Position numbers and translations under genes: made by a program
In this document: positions 20,867 through 43,983 of the stretch, one piece after another
Numbering within the stretch: the stretch's first letter is position 1
Layout: each line of letters starts with the position of its first letter
The notes under the pieces: model-generated
Seen by the model: the letters and a program-made list of their open reading frames with translations, nothing else
Databases searched by the model: none
Told to the model about the DNA's origin: nothing
NCBI RefSeq assembly: GCF_013388255.1
Contig: NZ_CP058215.1
Location: 1,984,001 to 2,048,000 of the forward strand
Direction: 5' to 3'
DNA length: 64,000 nucleotides
Source of the DNA: Methanolobus zinderi
GTDB taxonomy: Archaea; Halobacteriota; Methanosarcinia; Methanosarcinales; Methanosarcinaceae

Positions 20867-22519
20867 TCAATCGCTTTTGTTCAATGTCTTCATCCATCTT
20901 TTAAGCATATGGAATTCTTTTTTCTCAAGAGTATCGGGATCGATCACCAGTATAAACCTTGAACCTGATGCCATTATAGTATCATTGGTCTGTTCCATCA
21001 GTTTGACAACAGAAATAAAATCATTATCAAGCAGAAGGTATTCCAGACCATCCATAAGTATGATCCCGTCATCCACCTTGTCAACAAAATCAGATATTGT
21101 AGGGTGTATCCTGAAGAGCTCTGCCGGATCTATGGTCTGCTGGTCCTGACTTCTGTTCTTACTGAGCCATACGAAAGGAGTTTTTGGAAGACCGTATCTG
21201 ACACGTATATTTTCCGGGTTGTTCCTTGTTATACACAGGCCAGGTTTTCCCTGTTTGACCAGATGGGAAAAGAAAGAATAGGCATCCCCGGAGTCCACAC
21301 AGTCCGCGAGATAGATAAAACCGGCTTCAAGTTCTGATTCGTCTTCTTCCGCCTGCTCATGAACATCTTCTGTCAGAGGTGTGATGAAAAGTCCGCGTAG
21401 CTCGGACCTGTCCTGCAAAGTGAGAATGAGATTTTTGTCGTTTTCATTGCCTGCTATCACGGACGTTGATACGTTCATGGGAACCTGGTCTCCGTTGCCT
21501 TTGACAAAAACAATTTCTCTGTCCTTCATGTCCTTAAATTCAATGGAACTTTCTCCGGCGATAAGAGAGCTCAGAGGCCTGCCTAGCAGGTCATTGATTT
21601 CCATATCAAGAAGTTCTGTTGCGTTATTATTGACCGTCAGGATATTTCCCTTGCTGTCAAGGGAAAGCATCGCGATCGGAGAGGCCTTCAGAAGATTATC
21701 AAGATACTCGTTTGCACGTTTTATCTTCTCTTCGGCCTCTTTTCTTTCAGTGATATCCGTACCGGACATCAGTAAGCCACCCACATGATCATTATTGATC
21801 ATAGGAACAAAATTGTTCCAGCCTATTATTCTCTCCTCACCGCTTCGGGTCAACACGGGGCTCTCAAAATAAGCATCCAGATCAGTTCCACCCGACAGGA
21901 AGCTGTTGAACATATCCCTGAACTCCCGACGTGCAGTGTCCGGGACATAGTTCTCAAACCAGTCGGTGCCTGTAATCTCTTCTTCTGTGTAGCCCAGAAG
22001 TTCATATCCCTTTTTGCTCATGAGCCTGACATTACCGACTTCATCCAGCACAACCAGTACAACCGATGCAAGATCCAGGTAAAGTTTTGCCTGGTCACGC
22101 TGATTTATCAGGTCGTCGTGTAATTTTTTGATCCTGAGAAGGGAACTCCCCCTTGTGTTGATCTCTATCCTGTCAAGGGGTTTTGTCAGAAAATCATCGG
22201 CACCTGCTTTGATTCCCATTATCCTGTCTTCGATGCCCGAGAGTGCCGTTACCATGACAATAGGTATGAATTTGGTATCTTCCGAACCCTTGAGTGTTTC
22301 ACATACTTTGTAGCCTGTAATATCAGGCATCATTATATCAAGAAGTATTATGTCGGGATTATGCTCTTCAACCTTTTCAAGAGCTTCCACCCCACCATAG
22401 GCGGTGACTATCTCATAATCGTTCATCAGATAGGCTTCAAGCAGTTTAACATTAACTTCCTCGTCATCTACAATGAGGACTTTGCCCTTTTTTTCATCAT
22501 CCATTCCGTGATCACTCAT
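20867..22519 (-). CDS. Response regulator with two PAS domains and DUF835
   Basis: 550 residues. Receiver domain at about 13-130 (VLIVDDEEVN, phosphoacceptor Asp in ILLDIMMPDITG, conserved Lys in FLTKPLD). PAS domains follow at about 145-265 (ending TDITERKEAEEKIKRA) and 275-375 (LLKASPIAMLSLDSKG). DUF835 occupies about 410-545 (RYGLPKTPFVWLSKN, DDGIILMDGLEYLLLDNDF). There is no histidine kinase domain, so it receives a phosphoryl group and passes a signal through PAS and DUF835, probably by protein contact. The start may be ATG 22504 instead. It forms a two-gene unit with the KaiC-like ATPase. Confidence 0.88.
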   Translation of the reverse strand: MSDHGMDDEKKGKVLIVDDEEVNVKLLEAYLMNDYEIVTAYGGVEALEKVEEHNPDIILLDIMMPDITGYKVCETLKGSEDTKFIPIVMVTALSGIEDRIMGIKAGADDFLTKPLDRIEINTRGSSLLRIKKLHDDLINQRDQAKLYLDLASVVLVVLDEVGNVRLMSKKGYELLGYTEEEITGTDWFENYVPDTARREFRDMFNSFLSGGTDLDAYFESPVLTRSGEERIIGWNNFVPMINNDHVGGLLMSGTDITERKEAEEKIKRANEYLDNLLKASPIAMLSLDSKGNILTVNNNATELLDMEINDLLGRPLSSLIAGESSIEFKDMKDREIVFVKGNGDQVPMNVSTSVIAGNENDKNLILTLQDRSELRGLFITPLTEDVHEQAEEDESELEAGFIYLADCVDSGDAYSFFSHLVKQGKPGLCITRNNPENIRVRYGLPKTPFVWLSKNRSQDQQTIDPAELFRIHPTISDFVDKVDDGIILMDGLEYLLLDNDFISVVKLMEQTNDTIMASGSRFILVIDPDTLEKKEFHMLKRWMKTLNKSD

Positions 22520-31220: not shown

Positions 31221-31577
31221 ATGTCAAAAGTAATGATCGTGGACGATGCCGCTTTTATGCGTATGGTCATCAAGGACATCCTGAAAAAAAACGGCCATGA
31301 AGTCGTAGCAGAATGTGTTGATGGATTAGATGCTGTTCAGAAATATCCGGAAGCAAAACCCGAACTCGTTTTCATGGACATAGTCATGCCAAATATGGAA
31401 GGCATAGATGCACTCAAGAAGATAATGGAGATGGATCCTGATGCAAAGGTAGTTATGTGCTCATCCATAGGGCAGCAGTCTGTAGTAACAGACGCCCTCA
31501 AATGCGGAGCTCAGGATTTCATAGTTAAACCGTTTGATGCTGCCAAGGTGCTTGAAGTAATCGGGAAAGTAATGTAA
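31221..31577 (+). CDS. cheY: Chemotaxis response regulator CheY
   Basis: 118 residues, a single receiver domain. The acidic pair Asp8-Asp9, phosphoacceptor Asp53 (LVFMDIVMPNMEG), Ser in CSSIG and Lys in FIVKPFD are all present. It is phosphorylated by CheA and carries the signal to the output. It is the first gene of the operon; its TAA is followed directly by the cheB ATG. Confidence 0.95.
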   Translation: MSKVMIVDDAAFMRMVIKDILKKNGHEVVAECVDGLDAVQKYPEAKPELVFMDIVMPNMEGIDALKKIMEMDPDAKVVMCSSIGQQSVVTDALKCGAQDFIVKPFDAAKVLEVIGKVM

Positions 31578-32675
31578 ATGACTATCAATGTTCTTGTAGT
31601 CGATGACTCGGCACTGATGCGCAAGGTTATCTCGGATATCCTCTCAGAAGACGAGGAATTAAAAGTAATAGCAACAGCCAGGAACGGACTTGATGCTGTG
31701 CAAAAAGTCGAAAGATTCAGACCTGATGTTGTTACCCTTGACGTCGAAATGCCGGAACTTGACGGTTTGCATGCACTCGGATATATTATGAGTGAATGCC
31801 CCACACCTGTGGTGATGCTCACAGCCGTCGATGAAAAGTCTGCAGAAAGAACATTGAGTGCTTTTGAATACGGAGCAGTTGACTTTATCCAGAAACCTTC
31901 CGGGAATATCAGCCTGAACATCTCAGACATAGCCAAAAATATCCGCCAGAAAGTGAAGATGGCAGCAAAGGTGGATCTTAAAAAACTTGAGTTCATGGAA
32001 GAGCAGGTTACCAAGTCCAGGGAGGACATTGGCAAAAAAAGGGAGAAAAAGCCTTTGACCAACCTGGGAAGCGTTAAAAGAAAACCTTTATCCAGGCAGA
32101 AGATACTCGCCATAGCCTCTTCTACCGGAGGACCCCGTGCACTCGAGCAGGTCATACCAAAGCTGCCCGGCAATCTAAACATACCTGTTGTTATAGTTCA
32201 GCATATGCCAGCCGGATTTACGGCTTCACTGGCACAGAGGCTTGATACGCAATCAAAACTCAAGGTATGTGAAGCAAAGGACGGAGAAACAGTCAGGAAC
32301 GGGGTTGTTTACCTGGCACCCGGCAATTTCCATATGGAGATAGTCCGGAAAAATATCAATGGAAGGGACAGGGAAGTAATCTCCCTGAATCAAAAACCCC
32401 GTGAGCAAGGGGTCAGACCCTGTGCGAATATTCTTTTCAAATCACTGGTGCCGATATACGGACAGAACATACTGTCTGTCATACTTACAGGAATGGGAGC
32501 CGACGGAGCAGATGGTGCGGAAGAGATAAAGAAGACCGGAGGAAAAGTGATCACTGAGGATGAAAAATCCTGCGTGGTTTACGGAATGCCAAAAGTTGCT
32601 GTTCAGCGTGGTCTCTCGGATAGTGTTGTGGCTCTTGAGAAAATATCGGATGAGATCGTAATGATGCTTAAATAA
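31578..32675 (+). CDS. cheB: Protein-glutamate methylesterase CheB
   Basis: 365 residues. The receiver domain occupies 1-120 (phosphoacceptor Asp55 in VTLDVEMPELDG). A charged linker leads to the methylesterase domain with its triad: Ser in AIASSTGGPRALE, His in VVIVQHMPAGFT and Asp in GMGADGADG. It removes methyl groups from, and deamidates, chemoreceptors. No receptor gene is in the window. Confidence 0.96.
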   Translation: MTINVLVVDDSALMRKVISDILSEDEELKVIATARNGLDAVQKVERFRPDVVTLDVEMPELDGLHALGYIMSECPTPVVMLTAVDEKSAERTLSAFEYGAVDFIQKPSGNISLNISDIAKNIRQKVKMAAKVDLKKLEFMEEQVTKSREDIGKKREKKPLTNLGSVKRKPLSRQKILAIASSTGGPRALEQVIPKLPGNLNIPVVIVQHMPAGFTASLAQRLDTQSKLKVCEAKDGETVRNGVVYLAPGNFHMEIVRKNINGRDREVISLNQKPREQGVRPCANILFKSLVPIYGQNILSVILTGMGADGADGAEEIKKTGGKVITEDEKSCVVYGMPKVAVQRGLSDSVVALEKISDEIVMMLK

Positions 32676-32737: not shown

Positions 32738-34768
32738 ATGGACATGTCAGAATACAAAGATATCTTTAAAGCTGAGTCCGAAGAACATCTGCAGCAGTTA
32801 AATGAATCTCTTCTGGGGCTTGAACAAAACCCAAAGGAGATGGAATTCATCAATACAATGTTCCGTTCGGCACATACTCTCAAGGGTATGTCGGCTACCA
32901 TGGGCTTTGGAACAATTGCCGAGCTGACCCATGAGATGGAGAACCTCATGGACATGATCCGTAAATGCCAGGTCGCTGTCAACGATTCACTCATCGATAT
33001 CCTGTTTGAATGTCTCGACACCCTTGAAGCCCTTGTAGATAATGTGGACAGCGATGAAGAGGTAAACATATCCCACCTTCAGGCCACACTTGCGCAGGCC
33101 ATGGACGGTACGATCTGCGCTGCAGAGAGCATAACAGATGCTGCAGAAGACCTTGCAGCCAGCCAGATAGAACCTGATTCATCAGATGAGGAAATGGTTC
33201 TGCCTGAGATCGATCTTTCGAATGAGGAAAAGGAATCTATTGAAAGTGCAAAGGAGGATGGTTACAATATATCTTCGCTGAAGGTAGTCCTCGACGAGTC
33301 CTGTGTATTGAAATCCGCAAGATCAACACTGGTCCTCATAAATATCTCAAAGCTGGGACAGATCATCAAATGCATTCCCTCTGAAACAGACCTGGAAGAT
33401 GAAAAGTTTGACAGGGATTTCACAATCATCTATTCAACAAAAGAAAGCGATGAGACCATTGAAGAAGCCATCGGAAAAATCTCTGAAGTAAAGGATATTG
33501 AGATCACACCCCTGTATATCTGTGACAGCGGAGAAAAAGAGGAAAGTTCCGAAGAGAAAAAGGCAAGCAGTTCAGCCGGAGAGAGTACTTCTGCTGTCAA
33601 GAGGCCGGATACTGTAAAGAGCATACAGAGTGTCAGGGTGAACATCGAACGCCTGGACAACCTGATGAACTTGGTGGGTGAGCTTATCATAAACAAGATC
33701 AGGCTCAACCAGCTTGCATCCGACCTTAATGCAAAACACCTGGATGAATCGCTGGCCAATCTTGACCGGCTTACAAACGAGATCCAGACAGAGGTCATGG
33801 AATCCAGGATGGTACCCATCGACCAGATATTCAGCAGGTTCCCGAGGATGGTCAGGGACCTTGCAAAATCAGAAGGTAAACAGATCAACCTTGTTATCGA
33901 AGGTAAAGAAATCGAACTTGACAGAACGGTACTCGATGAGATTGGCGATCCGCTGGTCCACCTTCTTAGAAATGCAGTGGACCATGGCATAGAACCTGCA
34001 GAAGAACGTACAAAAGCAGGGAAACCCGAAGCAGGATTTGTCGGTCTTTCCGCATCAAGGCAGCGTAACAGCGTCCTCATTGAAGTCGAGGATGACGGCA
34101 AGGGTATGGACCCGGAACACCTCAGGGACGTCGCTGTTAAGAAAGGCATACTGAGCCGCGAGGAGGTTGACAAGCTCTCGGACACAGAGGCACTTAACCT
34201 GATATTCTATCCCGGATTCAGCGGTGCAAAGGTGATCACTGATGTCTCTGGAAGAGGAGTCGGGATGGATGCTGTCAAGACCAAGATAGAAGCACTTGGA
34301 GGAAGTGTGAAGGTCAGCTCCGTACAGGGGCAGGGAAGTTCCATAAAACTGCAGCTTCCGCTCACCGTGGCTATTATCCAGTCCCTCATGGTCAAGGTTG
34401 CAAAAGAGACCTATGCAATCCCGCTGGCCAATGTGGTCAGGGATGTGGGTATCAAAGCAAGTGAAATCAAAACCATAGAAGGAAAAGAGGTTATTATGCT
34501 GCGCGGGGAAGTTCTTCCCCTTTTAAGACTCCATGATGTTCTTGATTCCCCTTATGAGACAGAAGAGAAGGAGAATCTTATTGTTGTTGTCGTTGAGAGA
34601 ATGGGTCAAAACATCGGATTTGTAGTTGACCAGCTTCTCGGACAGCAGGAAGTAATTATCAAAACACTTGACAACAAGCTTTTGAAAAACACAAAAGGAT
34701 TTGCAGGGGCAACCATCCTGGGAGATGGAAGTGTTGCACTGATCCTTGATATTGCAACTTTGATATAA
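32738..34768 (+). CDS. cheA: Chemotaxis histidine kinase CheA
   Basis: 676 residues. P1 phosphotransfer domain at 1-105 with His46 (FRSAHTLKGM); an acidic linker; a P2-like domain at about 170-260; P3 dimerisation near 290-350 (SVRVNIERLDNLMNLVGELII); the P4 ATPase with N box HLLRNAVDHGIEP, G1 VEDDGKGMD, F box FYPGFSGA and G2 GRGVGMDAVK; and P5 CheW-like at about 540-676. It autophosphorylates and feeds CheY and CheB. With no cheW in the operon, receptor coupling must use CheW encoded elsewhere or the P5 domain alone. Start could be ATG 32738 or 32744. Confidence 0.96.
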   Translation: MDMSEYKDIFKAESEEHLQQLNESLLGLEQNPKEMEFINTMFRSAHTLKGMSATMGFGTIAELTHEMENLMDMIRKCQVAVNDSLIDILFECLDTLEALVDNVDSDEEVNISHLQATLAQAMDGTICAAESITDAAEDLAASQIEPDSSDEEMVLPEIDLSNEEKESIESAKEDGYNISSLKVVLDESCVLKSARSTLVLINISKLGQIIKCIPSETDLEDEKFDRDFTIIYSTKESDETIEEAIGKISEVKDIEITPLYICDSGEKEESSEEKKASSSAGESTSAVKRPDTVKSIQSVRVNIERLDNLMNLVGELIINKIRLNQLASDLNAKHLDESLANLDRLTNEIQTEVMESRMVPIDQIFSRFPRMVRDLAKSEGKQINLVIEGKEIELDRTVLDEIGDPLVHLLRNAVDHGIEPAEERTKAGKPEAGFVGLSASRQRNSVLIEVEDDGKGMDPEHLRDVAVKKGILSREEVDKLSDTEALNLIFYPGFSGAKVITDVSGRGVGMDAVKTKIEALGGSVKVSSVQGQGSSIKLQLPLTVAIIQSLMVKVAKETYAIPLANVVRDVGIKASEIKTIEGKEVIMLRGEVLPLLRLHDVLDSPYETEEKENLIVVVVERMGQNIGFVVDQLLGQQEVIIKTLDNKLLKNTKGFAGATILGDGSVALILDIATLI

Positions 34769-34786: not shown

Positions 34787-35401
34787 ATGGCTGAAATGGA
34801 CGAAATGGCAAAAGGAGCATTCCAGGAAGCAGGAAATATCGGGATGGGGCATCTGGCAACTTCTCTTTCCAAGATGGTGAACAGAGAGGTTAAGATCGAT
34901 ATACCCAGCGTGGAAATGCTCTCACTGGAAGATATTATTTCCAAGGCATCCGAAGGAAAACAAAAAACAGTAGTAGGAATTCACCTCCAGCTATCCGGTG
35001 ATGTGACCGGAGGTACACTTATATTGCTCCCTAAATTCTCCGCGCTTTCATTTTCCGACCTGTTAATGAAAAAACCGATCGGCACTACCAACAAAATAGA
35101 AGAGATGCAGATGCGCAAGCTGAGAGAAATGGGAGTGCGCCTCTGTAGTTCCTATATGCGTGTGGTCAACGAATTCCTCGGACTCAACCTGAAAGTGGGT
35201 GATCCGACCATGGAAGTGAACATGGAAGGAGTTTCAGAGTTCATACAAAAAGAAATAGGAGAACTTGCTGACGATTTCATAGTTGTCAAAGGAGAATGCT
35301 TCATTCCCTCTACCAATTCCAGAAACGAATTCAATATGCTTTTCGAACCTGAGGCCAGTGATGTGATCATGGCAGCAGTGATGAAGAAGATGATGGGATG
35401 A
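34787..35401 (+). CDS. CheC-family protein A
   Basis: 204 residues of the CheC/FliY phosphatase family. CheC active sites follow D/S-x3-E-x2-N with Pro 23 positions later. Site one is present as EAGN followed by Pro, but with Gly in place of the leading Asp/Ser. Site two reads EMGV, so the catalytic Asn is lost. It may dephosphorylate CheY-P weakly or act mainly by binding CheD or other partners. GAGGGT precedes the ATG. It is between cheA and the FtsA-like gene. Confidence 0.85.
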   Translation: MAEMDEMAKGAFQEAGNIGMGHLATSLSKMVNREVKIDIPSVEMLSLEDIISKASEGKQKTVVGIHLQLSGDVTGGTLILLPKFSALSFSDLLMKKPIGTTNKIEEMQMRKLREMGVRLCSSYMRVVNEFLGLNLKVGDPTMEVNMEGVSEFIQKEIGELADDFIVVKGECFIPSTNSRNEFNMLFEPEASDVIMAAVMKKMMG

Positions 35402-35406
35402 TATGA

Positions 35407-37530
35407 GTGAGTACCACCCACTTTGCCCTGGATATCGGAACCAGGACCGTTGTGGGGCTCATTGTAGAAGGAGAAGAGCCTCTGGAAATAAAAGCCGCAT
35501 GCATACTCGAGCATAATCAGCGCAGTATGCATGACGGACAGATCCATGATGTTGACAGGGTCGCAGAGGTTGTACAGAAGGTAAAGAAAGAACTTGAAGA
35601 GACCATCGGTCATGAACTTACCAGAGCCTCTGTGGCAGTTGCAGGAAGAGCTCTGAAAACGTCCAAGGTGAAACTGTCCATTGACCTGCCCTATGGAGAG
35701 ATCAGCAAAAAGGAGATCTCCGAGCTTGAATTTGAAGCGGTTGCAAGGGCAGGCAGTGAGATCGATTGTGATGAAAGGTTCAACTGTGTGGGCTATTCTG
35801 TTGTGGGTTATGAACTTGAGGGACAGAAGATATCAAGCCTTGAAGGACATACCGGGAGTTCCATATCGGTTGAGCTGCTTGCAACATTCCTGCCTGAAAC
35901 CGTTGTGAACAGTATGTTCGCAGTGCTTGACAGATGCGGCCTTGAAGCGGAGAGTGTCACACTGGAACCCATAGCCGCACTGAATATCGCAATCCCCAGG
36001 GACACACGCAAACTCAATCTTGCGCTGGTGGATATCGGTGCGGGTACATCGGATATTGCAGTCACCAGTGAAGGAACTGTCGTGGGCTATGGCATGGTCC
36101 CTGAAGCCGGGGACGAGATCACTGATTTTATTTGTGAGCATTATCTGCTTGATTTTAAGAAGGGTGAGGAGATCAAGCAACAACTGGTAGATGAAGATAA
36201 GGTGGAAATAAAGGACATTTTCGGTGTGGGAACCGAAATACAGACCTCTGAGATCATTTCTGTTATTGAAGATGAGGTTGACAGGCTTGCCGGCCATATC
36301 GCCGAAGAGATAATTTCCATCAATGGAAACCCCCCAAGGGCGGTTGTACTTGTTGGCGGAGGGTCACAGACAGCTACGCTCAAAGAAAAACTCGCTGAAC
36401 ATCTGGGCATACCTGTGCAGCGAATTGGTTCAAGACTTCCGGAAATGATAGAAGATCTGGAAGACAGGACAGGCAAAGTAACTGGTGCTGATATGATCAC
36501 TCCTCTGGGAATAGCCCTTACATCCATACACAACGACGGAATTGATTTTATCGAAGCTTCAGTGAACGGTACGAATGTCCACCTGATGGACCTCAATGGT
36601 CTTACGGTTATGGATGCACTCGTTGCCACCCGTATCAAAAGAATGTATCCACGTCCCGGCATGGCTCTTACATTGAAGGTCAATTCAGAATTCGTGACCA
36701 TAGAAGGAGAGACAGGACAGCATGCAAGTATCAGGCTTGATGGTAATAAAGCAAGTCTCGGAGATCCTATCAGCAGTGGTTCGCGTATTGAATTCAATCC
36801 TCCTGTTGACGGGAAGGATGCCAGCATAACAGTACGTGATCTGGCAGCCAGACAGGGAATAACAATGAAAGTTGATGTCACGATCAATGGCAGGAAGGAA
36901 AAGCAAACGCCTCTTCTTCGTGTAAATGGTGAGCGAGTAGAACCCGATACAGAGATACCTGACAGGGCCGAGCTTATCATCGCACCTGCAACTGTAAAAG
37001 AAGTACTGCACACCATGGCTGACAGTGATCCGGAAGAGAAGCTTCAGATCACACTTAACAGGAGAAGTAAAGTCCTTGACAGGGCGGAATATACCGTGGA
37101 ACTTAACGGGGAAGCTGTTGTCCCGAAGTATTTCGATGATACTGTCATCAAAGACGGAGATGTTCTGCATGTCAGCAAAAAGGACATACACTGGACATAT
37201 GCTGACCTCATTGACATTCCAAAGGCAGGAAAGAATATCAGTGTCATACTGAACAGTGAGAAAGTTACCTTCGAAGGGACTGAAGGAGCCATTAAAGCCA
37301 ATGGAAAGAGGGTACTTCCCTCGTACAGGGTCAACGATAGGGATAACATCGTCCTGGAAGACGGATCCGAGAAGGAACCCATACTTTCTGATCTTTTCGA
37401 ATTTATAGATATCAGACGTGAAGAGCTTGTCGGAAAGAGCATACGTCTGTTTGTTAACAATCATCAGGCACGCTTTACCACACCTCTCAAAGACGGTGAC
37501 AGGGTGAATATAGAATTCCCGGAGGTTTGA
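35407..37530 (+). CDS. Large FtsA/PilM-like actin-fold protein with beta-grasp-like repeats
   Basis: 707 residues. Residues 1 to about 370 are an actin-like ATPase of the FtsA/PilM group: phosphate 1 FALDIGTRTVVG, SHS2-like insertion, phosphate 2 LALVDIGAGTSDIAV, adenosine motif AVVLVGGGSQT. From about 375 the chain has three or four ThiS/ubiquitin-like units, each ending in the pattern VNG..V.....I.DGD.V.I (DDTVIKDGDVLHVSK, TPLKDGDRVNIEF). Large FtsA-domain proteins of this shape are known mainly from Firmicutes, so lateral transfer is my inference. The start is GTG 35407, five bases after the CheC-A stop. Its place between che genes argues for a role in placing or polarising the signalling array or its output machine, not cell division. 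Confidence 0.85.
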   Translation: MSTTHFALDIGTRTVVGLIVEGEEPLEIKAACILEHNQRSMHDGQIHDVDRVAEVVQKVKKELEETIGHELTRASVAVAGRALKTSKVKLSIDLPYGEISKKEISELEFEAVARAGSEIDCDERFNCVGYSVVGYELEGQKISSLEGHTGSSISVELLATFLPETVVNSMFAVLDRCGLEAESVTLEPIAALNIAIPRDTRKLNLALVDIGAGTSDIAVTSEGTVVGYGMVPEAGDEITDFICEHYLLDFKKGEEIKQQLVDEDKVEIKDIFGVGTEIQTSEIISVIEDEVDRLAGHIAEEIISINGNPPRAVVLVGGGSQTATLKEKLAEHLGIPVQRIGSRLPEMIEDLEDRTGKVTGADMITPLGIALTSIHNDGIDFIEASVNGTNVHLMDLNGLTVMDALVATRIKRMYPRPGMALTLKVNSEFVTIEGETGQHASIRLDGNKASLGDPISSGSRIEFNPPVDGKDASITVRDLAARQGITMKVDVTINGRKEKQTPLLRVNGERVEPDTEIPDRAELIIAPATVKEVLHTMADSDPEEKLQITLNRRSKVLDRAEYTVELNGEAVVPKYFDDTVIKDGDVLHVSKKDIHWTYADLIDIPKAGKNISVILNSEKVTFEGTEGAIKANGKRVLPSYRVNDRDNIVLEDGSEKEPILSDLFEFIDIRREELVGKSIRLFVNNHQARFTTPLKDGDRVNIEFPEV

Positions 37531-38370
37531 ATGATGCTAAAAGCTGCAGCAAACAAAAAATCTAAAGAGGATGCAGATTTTGCATCACTCAAGAATATAA
37601 TAAAGACCAGACTTGGATTCAACTGTGAATACTACAAGGACTCCCATTTCAGGAGAAGGATCGATGTCAGACTAAGAGCCACCGGCTCTGAAAATTTCGG
37701 AGAGTATATCCAGGTCCTCAAGCAGGACCAGAACGAGCAGGATATTCTTCTGGAAACCCTCACGGTCAATGTCACGAATTTCTTCAGGAATTCCGAGGTT
37801 TATGATATTATAGAAAAAGAGGTACTTCCTGCCGTGATCAAGTCGAAGGGTATCGGTATGAACAAGTCCATAAAAATATGGAGTGCCGGCTGTTCCATAG
37901 GTGTGGAGGCATATTCCATTGCAATGCTGTTCCACCACATCCTTGGAAACAGGATAGGCAGATATAATATCAGCATAACCGGAACCGATATTGACAAGGC
38001 AAGTCTACAGCATGCACGAAACGGCATATACAGCGAAGTAGAGATGAAGGACGTCAGACCTGATTTTATGCAGAGATACTTCGTAAAAGAAGGAAATCAG
38101 TACCATATCAAGGACGAGCTCAAAAAGATGACCCGCTTCAAACCACATGATATGATATCGGGTCCCAAGATGGGTGGTTTTGATATCATTTTCTGCAGAA
38201 ATGTCACGATATATTTTGAAAAAGAACTACAGGAAAAGCTCTATATGAAATTCTATGAAGGCCTCAATAAGGATGGGTTCTTTGTAATGGGAAAAACGGA
38301 AACACTCCTGGGACCATCTAAAGACCTTTTCAGGTCCTATAATGCAAAGGAGAGAATATACGCCAAATAA
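37531..38370 (+). CDS. cheR: Chemoreceptor methyltransferase CheR
   Basis: 279 residues. The N-terminal helical CheR domain (FRRRIDVRLRATG) is followed by a SAM-dependent methyltransferase domain with motif I IKIWSAGCSIGVEAYSIAML, the TGTDIDKASLQHAR acidic loop and DIIFCRNVTIYFEK. It methylates receptor glutamates. GGAGGTTTGA lies before the tandem ATGs, and the gene starts at the base after the FtsA-like stop, so translation is coupled. Lacks the TPR or beta-subdomain additions of some CheR proteins. Confidence 0.95.
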   Translation: MMLKAAANKKSKEDADFASLKNIIKTRLGFNCEYYKDSHFRRRIDVRLRATGSENFGEYIQVLKQDQNEQDILLETLTVNVTNFFRNSEVYDIIEKEVLPAVIKSKGIGMNKSIKIWSAGCSIGVEAYSIAMLFHHILGNRIGRYNISITGTDIDKASLQHARNGIYSEVEMKDVRPDFMQRYFVKEGNQYHIKDELKKMTRFKPHDMISGPKMGGFDIIFCRNVTIYFEKELQEKLYMKFYEGLNKDGFFVMGKTETLLGPSKDLFRSYNAKERIYAK

Positions 38371-38424
38371 GCTTCAATAAGAGCTCCTGTAGCTGAAAAA
38401 CAATCAATATAATAGAGGGATTAA

Positions 38425-39033
38425 ATGAGGATAGAAGAGCTGAATGAACTGGAAGCCAGTGCATTAAGGGAAATCGTCAATATTGGCGTTGGAAATGCAG
38501 TAACCTCACTTTCTAAAATGATCGGTAAGCAGATCAAGATCGAGGTCCCTGAACTTAAGATCGAGCGCATAGAGAAGGTACCTGAGATCGCAGGAGGTGC
38601 CGATACTGTTGTCTCAGGAGTGATAATGCATGTTGACGGGGACATTAACGGCTACATCATGATGTTGCTGTCAAAGGAAACCGCAGAAGCAATTTGTGCC
38701 ACTATCAGCGGAGAAGAAGAGGTAGACATCTTCAATGAACTGAATCAGTCAATGATCGAAGAAGTGGGACATATACTTGCAGGATCTTATGTCAGTTCCC
38801 TTTCCGAATTCCTGGGACTTGAACTTAGGATTTCACCACCCATGCAGACCTTTGATATGCTCGGAGCCATCATGGACCACATACTTATCGAGATGAGCAG
38901 GAATGTGGAAAGCACTCTTCTTTTTGATACTTTCTTCACACTGGAAGGTCACAGGATGGAAGGCATACTGCTCACATTGTTCGATCCCGAATCAATGGAC
39001 AAAATACTGAACAGGATTTCCGAGATGGTTTGA
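38425..39033 (+). CDS. CheC-family protein B
   Basis: 202 residues. Site one is complete (S-x3-EIVN with Pro 23 later, ALREIVNIGVGNAVTSL). Site two reads EVGH, with His in place of the catalytic Asn. A single-site CheC should still dephosphorylate CheY-P; the binding partner CheD is encoded three genes on. GAGGGA precedes the ATG. The N-terminal 90 residues are closest of the four to textbook CheC. Confidence 0.87.
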   Translation: MRIEELNELEASALREIVNIGVGNAVTSLSKMIGKQIKIEVPELKIERIEKVPEIAGGADTVVSGVIMHVDGDINGYIMMLLSKETAEAICATISGEEEVDIFNELNQSMIEEVGHILAGSYVSSLSEFLGLELRISPPMQTFDMLGAIMDHILIEMSRNVESTLLFDTFFTLEGHRMEGILLTLFDPESMDKILNRISEMV

Positions 39034-39046
39034 GAGGAGATAAAAA

Positions 39047-39658
39047 ATGAACATTGTACTTGACAAATTCTATTATGATGCACTGAACGAAGTAGGCAAT
39101 ATAGGAATGGGAAATGCTACCACAGCCCTTTCCCAGCTTGTAGGAAAATCAGTCAGTGTCAGTGGATCGGCGTTTACCTTACTCGGCCTGAACGATATCT
39201 CCACAGAACACGAATACAACCGGATCGGAGCTATAGTTAAGGTGGTGGGAGACCTGAACGGTGGTTTCCTTCTCATGCTTAACCAGAAACATTCCGATTC
39301 ACTGTCAGAGATGTTGCTTGAGCAAAACGAACACGAGGACGATGGTTATATGCGAAGGTCAGTGGTGGTGGAAGTGGCAAATATCCTTGCAGGTTCATAT
39401 TATAATGCATTATCCAAGTTCCTTGATCTTTCGGTAATACCTTCGATCCCGATAATATCTGAGGGAAGCCCGGATGATCTGCTGAAAAAATGCAGTCAGC
39501 ACTTCAACGGGAAAATCGAGCATGTCATGGGGCTTACTACACTTTTCGAAATCCAGTCAGAGGACCAGTACCAGAGTCTGAGCGGTGACATGTACATGCT
39601 GATGGACTCCGGCTCCATGAAGACGATCCTTAACAGAATAGACACAATGCGTACCTGA
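39047..39658 (+). CDS. cheC: CheC-family protein C
   Basis: 203 residues. Both catalytic Asn residues are kept: site one D-x3-EVGN (but Ser in place of the trailing Pro) and site two S-x3-EVAN with Pro 23 later (VVEVANILAGSYYNAL). It is the most likely fully active phosphatase of the four paralogues. It begins 13 bases after CheC-B and ends just before cheD, its usual partner gene. Confidence 0.88.
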   Translation: MNIVLDKFYYDALNEVGNIGMGNATTALSQLVGKSVSVSGSAFTLLGLNDISTEHEYNRIGAIVKVVGDLNGGFLLMLNQKHSDSLSEMLLEQNEHEDDGYMRRSVVVEVANILAGSYYNALSKFLDLSVIPSIPIISEGSPDDLLKKCSQHFNGKIEHVMGLTTLFEIQSEDQYQSLSGDMYMLMDSGSMKTILNRIDTMRT

Positions 39659-39663
39659 ATAAT

Positions 39664-40137
39664 ATGATAATAGTTGGGATGGCAGACAGCGCAGTAGCAA
39701 AAAAACCCGCAAAGATCACAACCCTTGGATTGGGTTCGTGTGTAGGCATAGCCTTGTATGACAAGAGAAGCTGTGTCGGCGGAATGGTGCACATAATGCT
39801 TCCCAGCGTAGAGAATGCAAGGTCAAAGGACAATGCAGCCAAGTTTGCAGACACGGGAATACCCCATCTGCTTGATTGCATGCTGGCAGAAGGTGCCAGC
39901 AAGAGTGCGATCAAAGCCAAGATCGCAGGCGGTGCAAGGATGTTTTCCTTTAATTCGAACGCACAGCTGAATATAGGAGAGCGCAACGTGGTCGCGACAA
40001 AGGAAGTCCTGAGAAAACTGAGGATACCTATTATCGCCGAGGATACCGGTGCAAACTATGGTCGTACGATCGTACTCGACACTGAAAACGGTAAACTTAC
40101 GGTGAAAAGTGCACTGAAAGGTGAAAAAATATATTAA
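39664..40137 (+). CDS. cheD: Chemoreceptor glutamine deamidase CheD
   Basis: 157 residues. The catalytic Cys and His lie in TTLGLGSCVGIALYD and GGMVHIMLP, with the conserved Thr/Ser region before the Cys; the C-terminal KIAGGARMFSF is typical. CheD deamidates receptors and stimulates CheC, its activity being tuned by CheC binding. ATG 39664 lies five bases after the CheC-C stop. Confidence 0.95.
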   Translation: MIIVGMADSAVAKKPAKITTLGLGSCVGIALYDKRSCVGGMVHIMLPSVENARSKDNAAKFADTGIPHLLDCMLAEGASKSAIKAKIAGGARMFSFNSNAQLNIGERNVVATKEVLRKLRIPIIAEDTGANYGRTIVLDTENGKLTVKSALKGEKIY

Positions 40138-40141
40138 CATA

Positions 40142-40151
40142 GATATATATT
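40142..40151 (+). promoter_or_regulatory. Possible internal TATA box in the che operon
   Basis: GATATATATT lies just after cheD, about 50 bases before the next start, and would give a leader of roughly 18 bases holding AAGGTGG. It could provide separate expression of the last three genes. Weak evidence: AT-rich gaps are common here. Confidence 0.3.
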
Positions 40152-40192
40152 ACTTAATAAGAGAAGAATATAAAAACTAAGGTGGCAGCAAG

Positions 40193-41407
40193 ATGTTAAC
40201 TTCGGACACTACACTGATCTACATATACATACTCTTCATTTCGGTTTCACTGGCAACCGGAATGGCAGCCATATATTTCTGGGTGAGGGTGCATCTCGAG
40301 ACCCAGAAGGGATCTATAGCCTGGCTGCTCCTGGCACTTACTGCCGTATTCCTTATCACCACATCAATCTTCTCATCGGTCGCTGTAAGCAACTCCGACC
40401 CTCTGGTCACAGAAACGATACTGATATTCCTTGGATTCTGGGGTGCTGTCTATACAAGTATCTTTGCTGCCGCCGGTTTTATGATGTTCAATGCATTCAG
40501 GACGATTCCCCGTGAAAAACTTGGAGATTTCCTGCTAGAAGGCATGGTCTTCCAGAAAGGTCAGATATTAAAATCCGCATGCGGAAAGAACTGTTCGATA
40601 TGTGAAGAATATACAGGGGAAAGATGTCATGGATGTATCCCGAAAAACAAGGAGGGAGAGGAGAGCTGTTCCATTTACGATTGTGTTGTTGAAAAAGGAA
40701 TGACATCCTGTATGGACTGTGACAGCAACACCAACTGTGATACCTATAATTACGAGATAGTCCAGTGTCCACTGAACAATGATATCGGAACTCTTCCTGA
40801 ACTTGAACATACAGCCAGTATATTCAAGCGCTCAACACTTCTGGAATACACACCCCAGGCAAGATATGAGGATGCGGTTATTGAAATTTGCCTCAGGTTC
40901 TATGGAGAGATGGTGAACACGGTTCTTGTATCCACCCAGCCACGCACCGCGCTCTACAAGGAGAAGCTTGGCGATCTCATCGATATCGGTGCCATGAAGT
41001 TTATCGAGATATCTACCACTGCAACGACTGTCAGTGAAGAGAACGGCATAATTAAGCTGCCTGTTAAGGAGCTTGACAAGTTCTTCGACCTGACCGCCAG
41101 ACTACCAAAGGACTGTGCTGTTGTTTTTGAACCTGTTACCCAGCTTATTCTAAGCGAAGGTGAGACAAAAACCTATGATTTCATGTCCGGTATGGTTGAA
41201 AAATTCAATTCCAGTGAACTGATACTTATCGGGCTGATCAATAAAACAGCCCATGAAGAAAAAACGGTCTCGAGGTTTGAAGGACTCTTCCTCAATCTTG
41301 CCGAGCTGGTAAAGAACCGGATACGCATTGTAAAGGGAGGGAAAGAAGAATACATCCGCTTCTTTGTAGGAGAGAAATTCTACATGGAAGAAACAGAGGA
41401 TACTTAA
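40193..41407 (+). CDS. Membrane protein with Cys-rich (DUF3795-like) cluster and degenerate ATPase-like domain
   Basis: 404 residues. Three membrane helices occupy about residues 7-30, 42-65 and 75-102. Eleven cysteines then lie between 130 and 192 (CGKNCSIC, CHGC, CSIYDC, CMDC), a spacing like DUF3795 metal-binding proteins; zinc or an Fe-S cluster is possible. Residues of about 205-400 resemble the degenerate KaiC/DUF835-type fold (VLVSTQPRTALYKEKLG, CAVVFEPVTQLILSEGETKTYDF, LILIGLINKTAHEEK) but lack a Walker A. This order of parts is unknown to me. Its place in the operon suggests a membrane redox or metal sensor, or a docking platform, for the che system. Confidence 0.7.
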   Translation: MLTSDTTLIYIYILFISVSLATGMAAIYFWVRVHLETQKGSIAWLLLALTAVFLITTSIFSSVAVSNSDPLVTETILIFLGFWGAVYTSIFAAAGFMMFNAFRTIPREKLGDFLLEGMVFQKGQILKSACGKNCSICEEYTGERCHGCIPKNKEGEESCSIYDCVVEKGMTSCMDCDSNTNCDTYNYEIVQCPLNNDIGTLPELEHTASIFKRSTLLEYTPQARYEDAVIEICLRFYGEMVNTVLVSTQPRTALYKEKLGDLIDIGAMKFIEISTTATTVSEENGIIKLPVKELDKFFDLTARLPKDCAVVFEPVTQLILSEGETKTYDFMSGMVEKFNSSELILIGLINKTAHEEKTVSRFEGLFLNLAELVKNRIRIVKGGKEEYIRFFVGEKFYMEETEDT

Positions 41408-41441
41408 AAAACGTTATCCAATGAAAGAAAAAGGTCAGAAA

Positions 41442-42065
41442 ATGCAAGAACTTGATAGCCTGGAGATAGATGCCCTGAAGGAGATCGGAAGCACCGGTAT
41501 GGGAAATGCTACCACAGCACTCTCTAAACTGGTTGGAAGACCTGTCAGGCTGAATCTATCGGATGCCAGAATGTTCAGTCTGCAGAGTATTGCAGCCTCG
41601 ATCCCCGATACAATTACAATGACAGGGGTGATGGTTAATACGGGAGGCAAGCTCAAAGGTGCGGCTGTGCTCTTATTTGAATTCGCTAACTCGGTCCTCC
41701 TGAGCGATCTGATGCTTGACAGTAATGAGATTACAGGTGACCCTTCAATGAACGAATCCGCACTTTGCGAACTCGGCAATGTTTTCACCGGCTCTTACTT
41801 TAGTGCTCTTTCTTCTTTCCTTGACCTTGGAATATATCAGGACCCGCCGGTAATTACTATCGGACCGGCACAGGAGATATTTGAAAACGCATTCTCACGT
41901 ATGGGAGTGAAACCGACTGGAATACTGACCATCGAAACAATGTTCATGGTACACAATGCAGGAGACGGAACAGGACTCAACACAATATACGGGGACATGT
42001 TCCTGCTTCTGGAACCTTCATCCACCCAAGGGCTGCGTGCTTCAATACAAAAGCTCCTGGCCTGA
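41442..42065 (+). CDS. CheC-family protein D
   Basis: 207 residues from ATG 41442, chosen over ATG 41421 because AAAGGTCAG lies just before it and the other CheC proteins start at this point. Site one reads EIGS, so its catalytic Asn is lost; site two is intact (S-x3-ELGN, Pro 23 later, CELGNVFTGSYFSAL). It mirrors CheC-B, which kept site one and lost site two. It follows the membrane protein by about 34 bases. Confidence 0.85.
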   Translation: MQELDSLEIDALKEIGSTGMGNATTALSKLVGRPVRLNLSDARMFSLQSIAASIPDTITMTGVMVNTGGKLKGAAVLLFEFANSVLLSDLMLDSNEITGDPSMNESALCELGNVFTGSYFSALSSFLDLGIYQDPPVITIGPAQEIFENAFSRMGVKPTGILTIETMFMVHNAGDGTGLNTIYGDMFLLLEPSSTQGLRASIQKLLA

Positions 42066-42740: not shown

Positions 42741-43367
42741 ATGATGGACATCGCGATATATTCACTTGTTGACGATATGGTCAGCAAAGCAGGAACGGAG
42801 GGTGTTGTAGAATACTGGCTCCGTGTGGGTGAAAGCTATGCGGAAAGGATGGGAAAGGAAGCTTATGTCGGCTGGCCCGCCTTTAACGTGGCAATGAAAG
42901 AGGGCAGGACCTCTCTGACAGTGGAAGGCGAGGTAAACGTACTGACCGACCTTGCGATCATAGACAAGGACGGGGATGTGATCGGATATGTCTATGCTCT
43001 CAAGACATGTCCCATGGCACCGACCATGAGAAGATACATATCCAGAATCGGCCCGATCCCGGATTCTGATACTGACGTTGCTGACAGTTACAATAACCGC
43101 ATCAGGGATTCTGCTGTTTCAAACTATTGCATTACACACCAGAAGTTCAGGGAAGTTGCAGCTAACAATATCACCGTTGCAAAACAGGCTCTTGAATGTC
43201 TCCAGCTTGCAAACAAGGGAATGACAGGAGACGTAAAGATGGTGCCTGAGAACCTGGCAAGGATAAACGTGGACGAGCGCCACATCAAAAGTATACTCCG
43301 CAGTGCATCATGTGTCTTTGCTCTGATAGTCAAAGGTAAAAGTGCAGGCGAAGAAATAATCGAGTGA
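42741..43367 (+). CDS. Unknown family, member 1 of adjacent paralogous pair
   Basis: 208 residues, soluble. It shares with the next gene a conserved core: TCPMAPTMRRYISRIG, then D-x-YN..I..SA....C..HQ.(F/Y)R..A..ITV, then L.....A..G..TG......PE, and a C-terminal SCVFALIVKG. Conserved Cys (three) and His-Gln could bind a metal, haem or organic ligand. The middle (NVLTDLAIIDKDGDVIGYVYAL) has a strand pattern like a small-molecule-binding domain. I do not recognise the family. It stands directly after the che operon with its own promoter. Confidence 0.7.
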   Translation: MMDIAIYSLVDDMVSKAGTEGVVEYWLRVGESYAERMGKEAYVGWPAFNVAMKEGRTSLTVEGEVNVLTDLAIIDKDGDVIGYVYALKTCPMAPTMRRYISRIGPIPDSDTDVADSYNNRIRDSAVSNYCITHQKFREVAANNITVAKQALECLQLANKGMTGDVKMVPENLARINVDERHIKSILRSASCVFALIVKGKSAGEEIIE

Positions 43368-43377
43368 TTGTGATAAT

Positions 43378-43983
43378 ATGGCCGAGAATATTGAATCAAA
43401 TCCTTTTGTTGATGTTTCTGTATATCTCTTCTTTGAGGATATTTCAGATAAACAGGGAGTAGAAAGTTTCACCAATTACATGGTAGGACAGGCACAGTCC
43501 CTTGCAAAATCAGTCCCCGAGGAGGAATATGAGACATGGGATGACTTCGCAAGTGCTGTCGTTAGCGGTGAATCCGTATTCTCATCCTTTGAGAGTATAG
43601 AGCAGATCAGCAAATGCGGCTTCGTTACCAATATATGCCCCTTTTCCAAGGCTATCAGGGAATACATAAAGAGAATAGGCAATTTCAATCCTGTACACAT
43701 CGAAGCCACTGACCATTACAACCACACGATCCAGCCATCCGCCGCCCACAGTGCATGTATGATGCATCAGACCTACAGAAGAGAGGTCGCAAAAAGAATA
43801 ACTGTCGGAGGAAAACCACTCCAGTATGCACAGATAGGTGCAAAGGCATACACCGGAGAGATAGCACTTCCACCTGAATCATGGAAGAAGGTACTTCTGG
43901 AGAAAGCAGGCATTTCAGAGACACAGGGATTCATGGAAATGCGAGAGAACAGCTGCCTTTACCTGCTATATGTTGAAGGCTGA
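43378..43983 (+). CDS. Unknown family, member 2 of adjacent paralogous pair
   Basis: 201 residues, a clear paralogue of the preceding protein: ICPFSKAIREYIKRIG, DHYNHTIQPSA, CMMHQTYRREVAKRITV, AKAYTGEIALPPE and SCLYLLYVEG line up in order. Its N-terminal 85 residues differ more (YETWDDFASAVVSGESVF), so the two probably form a heterodimer or bind different ligands. It starts ten bases after member 1, so both are made together. A hairpin terminator follows. Confidence 0.7.
   Translation: MAENIESNPFVDVSVYLFFEDISDKQGVESFTNYMVGQAQSLAKSVPEEEYETWDDFASAVVSGESVFSSFESIEQISKCGFVTNICPFSKAIREYIKRIGNFNPVHIEATDHYNHTIQPSAAHSACMMHQTYRREVAKRITVGGKPLQYAQIGAKAYTGEIALPPESWKKVLLEKAGISETQGFMEMRENSCLYLLYVEG

Follow-up and report, generated by a model that had tools for sequence, protein, structure and literature searches.

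The four CheC paralogues encoded by the che operon of this Methanolobus genome are best explained as lineage-specific, CheC-type CheY-P phosphatases that have probably specialized by losing different catalytic residues. A division of labor is the better reading and is supported at the level of sequence because the paralogues form separate lineages, their motif states persist across tens of genomes, and only one of them, CheC-B, always has the Asp that contacts CheD. Simple redundancy does not fit CheC-A, CheC-B, or CheC-D. The initial annotation had proposed division of labor or heterodimers instead of redundancy, and it is the former that stands; nothing in the data requires heterodimers. Searches of a literature collection listed no paper on the CheC paralogues of Methanolobus.

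The CheC genes and their active-site motifs

In the window (the whole 64,000-nucleotide stretch that was analyzed), the che operon of a 2.7-Mb Methanolobus genome runs from CheY through U201 with all genes on the forward strand, as follows.

31221..31577, forward strand: CheY, the presumed substrate
31578..32675, forward strand: presumably CheB, named from the ORF translation
32738..34768, forward strand: CheA, the sole CheA in the genome
34787..35401, forward strand: CheC-A (PF04509, motifs, and AlphaFold/Foldseek fold)
35407..37530, forward strand: 707-aa protein with an FtsA/PilM-like ATPase fold and ThiS-like domains
37531..38370, forward strand: presumably CheR, named from the ORF translation
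38425..39033, forward strand: CheC-B (PF04509, alignment, and tree)
39047..39658, forward strand: CheC-C (PF04509, alignment, and tree)
39664..40137, forward strand: CheD (PF03975)
40193..41407, forward strand: 404-aa protein with a DUF3795 match
41421..42065, forward strand: CheC-D (PF04509, alignment, and tree)
from 42101, forward strand: U172
42741-43367, forward strand: U208
43378-43983, forward strand: U201

Because the gaps around the CheC genes are short (∼5 to 55 bases), the che genes are likely to be co-transcribed. The four CheC genes are where they had been annotated, and each product passes the PF04509 cut-off of 22 bits (CheC-A, 30.0; CheC-B, 77.5; CheC-C, 56.6; CheC-D, 45.6). The whole genome yields six PF04509 matches, every one of them inside these four proteins, which are thus the only CheCs present. 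All four are of CheC length, and searches of Pfam and NCBIfam found no second domain in any of them. The genome holds one CheA and one CheD; three MCP signaling frames and two CheW genes lie outside the window, and the archaellum gene set lies elsewhere. A 957-aa protein of this genome (L142:6335-9205), encoded about 40 kb off the archaellum operon, has its ArlC and ArlD/E domains confined to the C-terminal third, and large open frames carrying that domain occur in many genomes of the family. The 404-aa protein, placed between CheD and CheC-D, has a Cys-rich part and, judging from its sequence, membrane segments; its version in one relative (G069, locus L180) keeps both ends, and the middle Cys-rich part is gone.

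The eight motif strings initially read from the sequence were all correct (EAGN and EMGV in CheC-A, EIVN and EVGH in CheC-B, EVGN and EVAN in CheC-C, and EIGS and ELGN in CheC-D). Written as the D/S, E, N, and P positions of site 1 and site 2, the states are GENP/REVP in CheC-A, SENP/SEHP in CheC-B, DENS/SENP in CheC-C, and DESS/SENP in CheC-D, compared with DENP/SENP in the CheC of Thermotoga. When the four proteins were aligned with each other and with Thermotoga CheC, the motifs fell in register, and the spacing of 22 residues between N and P at all eight sites matches that in Thermotoga CheC, which excludes misalignment as the cause of the apparent losses. Two details can be added to the first reading: site 2 of CheC-A lacks both Ser and Asn, and site 1 of CheC-D lacks Pro as well as Asn. 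None of the four proteins has two full D/S-x3-E-x2-N-x22-P sites, and CheC-A has Gly in place of D/S even at its kept site. Because one-site members are common, two full sites do not define the CheC family, and the membership of the four stands. The losses had also been called complementary, which is a fair description of CheC-A versus CheC-D; CheC-B and CheC-C do not fall under a single scheme of complementation.

An AlphaFold model of CheC-A (pLDDT 87) has the CheC of Thermotoga maritima (1XKR) as its best Foldseek match (E 4e-15, TM 0.77), and the predicted fold is thus that of CheC (also found in 2F9Z, with CheD); the prediction covers CheC-A, and CheC-B, CheC-C, and CheC-D are assigned from sequence. 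Thermotoga CheC has both sites in full, whereas CheC-A, CheC-B, and CheC-D each lack one Asn and CheC-C lacks a Pro. T. maritima FliY and CheX belong to the same superfamily as the four proteins, FliY carrying an additional motor domain.

Conservation and descent of the motif states

Relatives were drawn from 40 regions round CheD and six further loci, and the counts that follow include the window proteins. Because the paralogue-specific states recur across the genus and its sister genera, the motif pattern is not due to chance. In CheC-A, site 1 has Glu, Asn, and Pro in 36/36 rows each, with Gly (34/36) or Ser (2/36) at the first position; at site 2, Asn is found in 0/36 (Val in 22, Leu in 8, Ile in 2, Met in 2, Ser in 1, and Phe in 1), and Glu is found in 33/36, otherwise Asp (2) or Asn (1). 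CheC-B has the site-1 Asn in 43/43 rows, and its site 2 has Glu in 43/43 and His in 37/43, Asn in 5/43, or Gln in 1/43. All 23 CheC-C rows have both Asn residues and Ser replacing the first Pro. In CheC-D, site 1 has Asp and Glu in 35/35 and Pro in 0/35, and its Asn position holds Ser (28), Gly (4), Thr (1), or Asn (2/35, both in genus g9); site 2 has Asn in 34/35 and Ser in 1/35. Because 33% and 36% of all columns are invariant in CheC-A and CheC-C, respectively, compared with 11% in CheC-B and 14% in CheC-D, constancy tells most in CheC-B and CheC-D and less in CheC-A and CheC-C. Some of the losses are loosely held, as seen from the Asn in 5/43 rows of CheC-B site 2 and 2/35 rows of CheC-D site 1.

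The main rival explanation is relaxed constraint, whereby four copies make one site in each protein surplus and the sites drift off without new jobs arising. We regard this as a real but minority possibility, which may still hold for site 2 of CheC-B or for CheC-C. It is in keeping with the His/Asn/Gln variation at CheC-B site 2, the decay of CheC-C in two relatives (L047 and L059), the missing CheC-D of G069, and the commonness of one-site CheCs (21 of 59 other CheC domains sampled). However, lost sites under drift would not retain the CheY-docking Glu, which is present there in 33/36 CheC-A, 43/43 CheC-B, and 35/35 CheC-D rows, and the kept site would not stay the same in a paralogue across several genera, as it does. 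Full decay of a site does occur elsewhere, because, among the 25 outside domains that lack the Asn of site 1, only 6 keep the Glu. The good conservation of CheC-A (63–100% identity among relatives) likewise argues against surplus sites adrift, and specialization by different losses accounts better for these observations.

In a tree of 71 rows, from which the site-2-only proteins of outside families are absent, CheC-A and CheC-C each occupy one side of a branch (support 100/100), as does CheC-B (97/96), and CheC-C and CheC-D together form one clade (100/100). The CheC-B clade gathers the CheC that accompanies CheD across the family. Because CheC-D alone as one clade was not rejected (AU p 0.425), the site-1 Asn of CheC-C may have been either regained or kept. 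On this tree, at least three changes are needed for the site-1 Asn and at least five for site 2, numbers that relaxed constraint fits too.

CheC-C is, as far as its sequence and distribution tell, a dispensable D-like copy: in L047 there is only a fragment, L059 has a fused and frameshifted version, and neither L069 nor the sister genera have the gene. Intact CheC-C is found only where the gene for the FtsA/PilM-like protein is intact (23/23, including one genome in which the two genes sit on different contigs). That protein is confined to g1 and a single g3 genome, is truncated in L047, and is absent in L069. The CheC-C of L059 has an apparent fusion between its two internal repeats, with ∼94 residues lost and a frameshift after; it hints at a one-site origin via repeat recombination, although the copy itself seems dead. 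Because CheC-C is lost in some relatives and CheC-D in one, not all four jobs are essential. One Methanolobus genome (G055) has archaellum genes, yet is without CheD, CheC, and U208.

CheD binding, catalysis, and the question of dimers

The observations comprise the motif states and how well they are conserved, the phylogeny, the operon context, and the predicted fold of CheC-A; from these we infer the following scheme for which sites are catalytic and which are not, for the binding of CheD, and for action as monomers and its place. As described in PMC3035606, CheC, CheX, and FliY need two inserted residues, an Asn that positions the water for attack and an acidic side chain that forms a pair with the Lys of the receiver. 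Each of the four proteins has the usual two pseudo-symmetric sites, of which a site with Glu and Asn should hydrolyze CheY-P, and a site with Glu but without Asn should at most dock CheY-P without hydrolysis. CheC-A would then be a conserved phosphatase that uses site 1 alone and in which the CheD-contact Asp is not strictly kept, CheC-B a CheD-binding adaptation phosphatase, CheC-D a protein active through site 2 alone, and CheC-C, the D-like copy in Methanolobus, a protein active through both sites. Neither CheC-C nor CheC-D should bind CheD as CheC-B does. Most probably, each of the four works as a monomer of its own on CheY-P (or on the receiver of CheB, a possible second substrate), and they would differ in the place or the state in which they do so.

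The assignment of CheC-B draws on work in Bacillus subtilis, where CheC D149 lies at the CheD interface and changing it harms CheD binding and spares phosphatase activity, according to PMC3513319, which also reports that a Met-Phe pair in CheD marks species having CheC. The window CheD carries this pair (GGARMFSF). The CheD-contact column (P2+5) was set by alignment to Thermotoga D144, and its presumed counterpart in B. subtilis is D149; the column holds Asp in 43/43 CheC-B rows (residue 144 in the window), 5/36 CheC-A rows (Asn in 31/36), 0/23 CheC-C rows, and 0/35 CheC-D rows. Because only CheC-B always keeps this Asp, it is the likely CheD partner, and CheC-A, CheC-C, and CheC-D would be lesser partners of CheD or none. 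CheC-B and Thermotoga CheC also have a common CheD-contact helix motif (FDMLGAI / IDMISAI). In one relative in which CheC-A and CheC-D lie inside the operon and CheC-B elsewhere (G029), CheD adjoins CheC-B (L081).

The names of the CheC classes (class I and class III) reportedly go back to Muff and Ordal in 2008. Of the class I features, CheC-B has the CheD-interface Asp and lacks two intact sites; because of His116 at site 2, the window CheC-B is filed as class-I-like and not as a class I member. CheC-D fits the site-2-only (class III) state by motif. The site-2-only archaeal CheCs (f14, f17, and f18, probably haloarchaea) likewise have lost one of two sites and occur as several paralogues per genome. 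They lose site 1, often with its Glu, whereas CheC-A and most CheC-B proteins do the reverse, and CheC-D, unlike them, still has the Asp and Glu of the site it has lost. The structure 3QTA is from Haloarcula.

Heterodimers, in which CheC-A (or other members in other pairs) would give site 1 and CheC-D site 2, are very improbable in our view. The kept sites of CheC-A and CheC-D mirror each other, and CheC-D is present in 34/35 of the A-bearing genomes in which its place is visible (in G056, the contig ends first). However, G069 keeps CheC-A in an otherwise near-complete operon with no CheC-D, CheC-C is decayed or absent in several relatives, and CheC-A and CheC-D are coded apart from CheC-B in G029 and G030. 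Further, catalysis by a lone one-site protein calls for no second subunit: single-site CheCs are frequent among archaea, and CheX, too, uses a single site. Thermotoga CheC is presumably a monomer. In Halobacterium salinarum, the contact between CheC1 and CheC2 was judged in PMC3579733 to be too unstable for stable heterodimers, which also argues against them here.

The same source reports different partners for CheC1, CheC2, and CheC3 of H. salinarum and had already proposed different roles for them, in line with the division of labor favored here; by its description, CheC1 and CheC2 consist of one CheC domain and CheC3 of two. It further reports that CheC1 binds CheB (PMC3579733), which raises the possibility that some of the four proteins act on CheB or another response regulator and not on CheY. 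The genome has other receivers, for example, a 352-aa protein by the archaellum genes and one at 20867-22519 of the window, but there is a single CheA, and CheY lies in the same operon, so we hold this to be quite improbable.

According to PMC3513319, phosphatase activity is of less importance in B. subtilis than the binding of CheD, and the balance between catalysis and regulated binding in the role of CheC is not settled. Four natural paralogues with single- and double-site states, one with a constant CheD contact, offer a set for separating these roles in one organism.

CheC-A and the neighboring U208 and U201 proteins

A one-site CheC as such is ordinary in the family; it is the site-1-only subfamily that is unusual. 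Among the 59 outside CheC domains, which are a hand-chosen sample and not a census, 34 keep both Asn residues, 21 the site-2 Asn only, 4 neither, and 0 the site-1 Asn only, which marks CheC-A as an unusual member. The stem of the CheC-A clade is long, at 2.11 changes per column. A further reading, which we think unlikely, is that CheC-A forms a distinct site-1-only subfamily (long stem, then slow evolution) in which the Glu-bearing site 2 would bind CheY-P without hydrolysis. A single CheC would in that case sense CheY-P as well as removing it and would tie phosphatase output to some partner besides CheD, for which CheA and the co-inherited U208/U201 pair are conceivable candidates.

U208 and U201 are adjacent paralogues (28% identical) that travel with the operon. 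U208 is found at full length in 36/111 genomes of the family, with 81–100% identity across those 36, and together with CheC-A in 35/111; in the genomes with U208 alone (G072) or CheC-A alone (G056), the contig ends where the other gene should be. Cys90, Cys130, His133, and Cys191 (U208 numbering) are invariant in 15 aligned U208/U201 rows. U172 and U208 matched no family in Pfam or NCBIfam, and the matches of U201 did not rise above chance level. The U208 model (pLDDT 71) resembles TRAPP/BcsD and phenol-sensor (V4R-like) domains with Z up to 7.6, and, with Z below 8, this modeled likeness is suggestive only. A possible role for U208/U201 is that of a sensor, either Cys-based or of a ligand, with output to the che system.

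That U208/U201 replace CheF was considered and is not supported, short CheF-like ORFs having been found in the lineage. In a first search of the 111 genomes, full-length CheF and U208 were never in the same genome. A second search with an alignment built from two loci added full-length CheF in G019, G021, and G025, and gave no match in the window's own genome at E up to 1. It also revealed short CheF-like ORFs of 196–218 aa in 11/11 tested genomes of the A/D lineage other than the window's own, and it thus appears that only full-length CheF is lacking in the lineage. These ORFs match approximately residues 80–243 of the 266-residue CheF query, the N-terminal part being apparently absent (for example, G029:C1:687463-687975 and G044:C1:469448-469951), and they may be the archaellum adaptor of the lineage.
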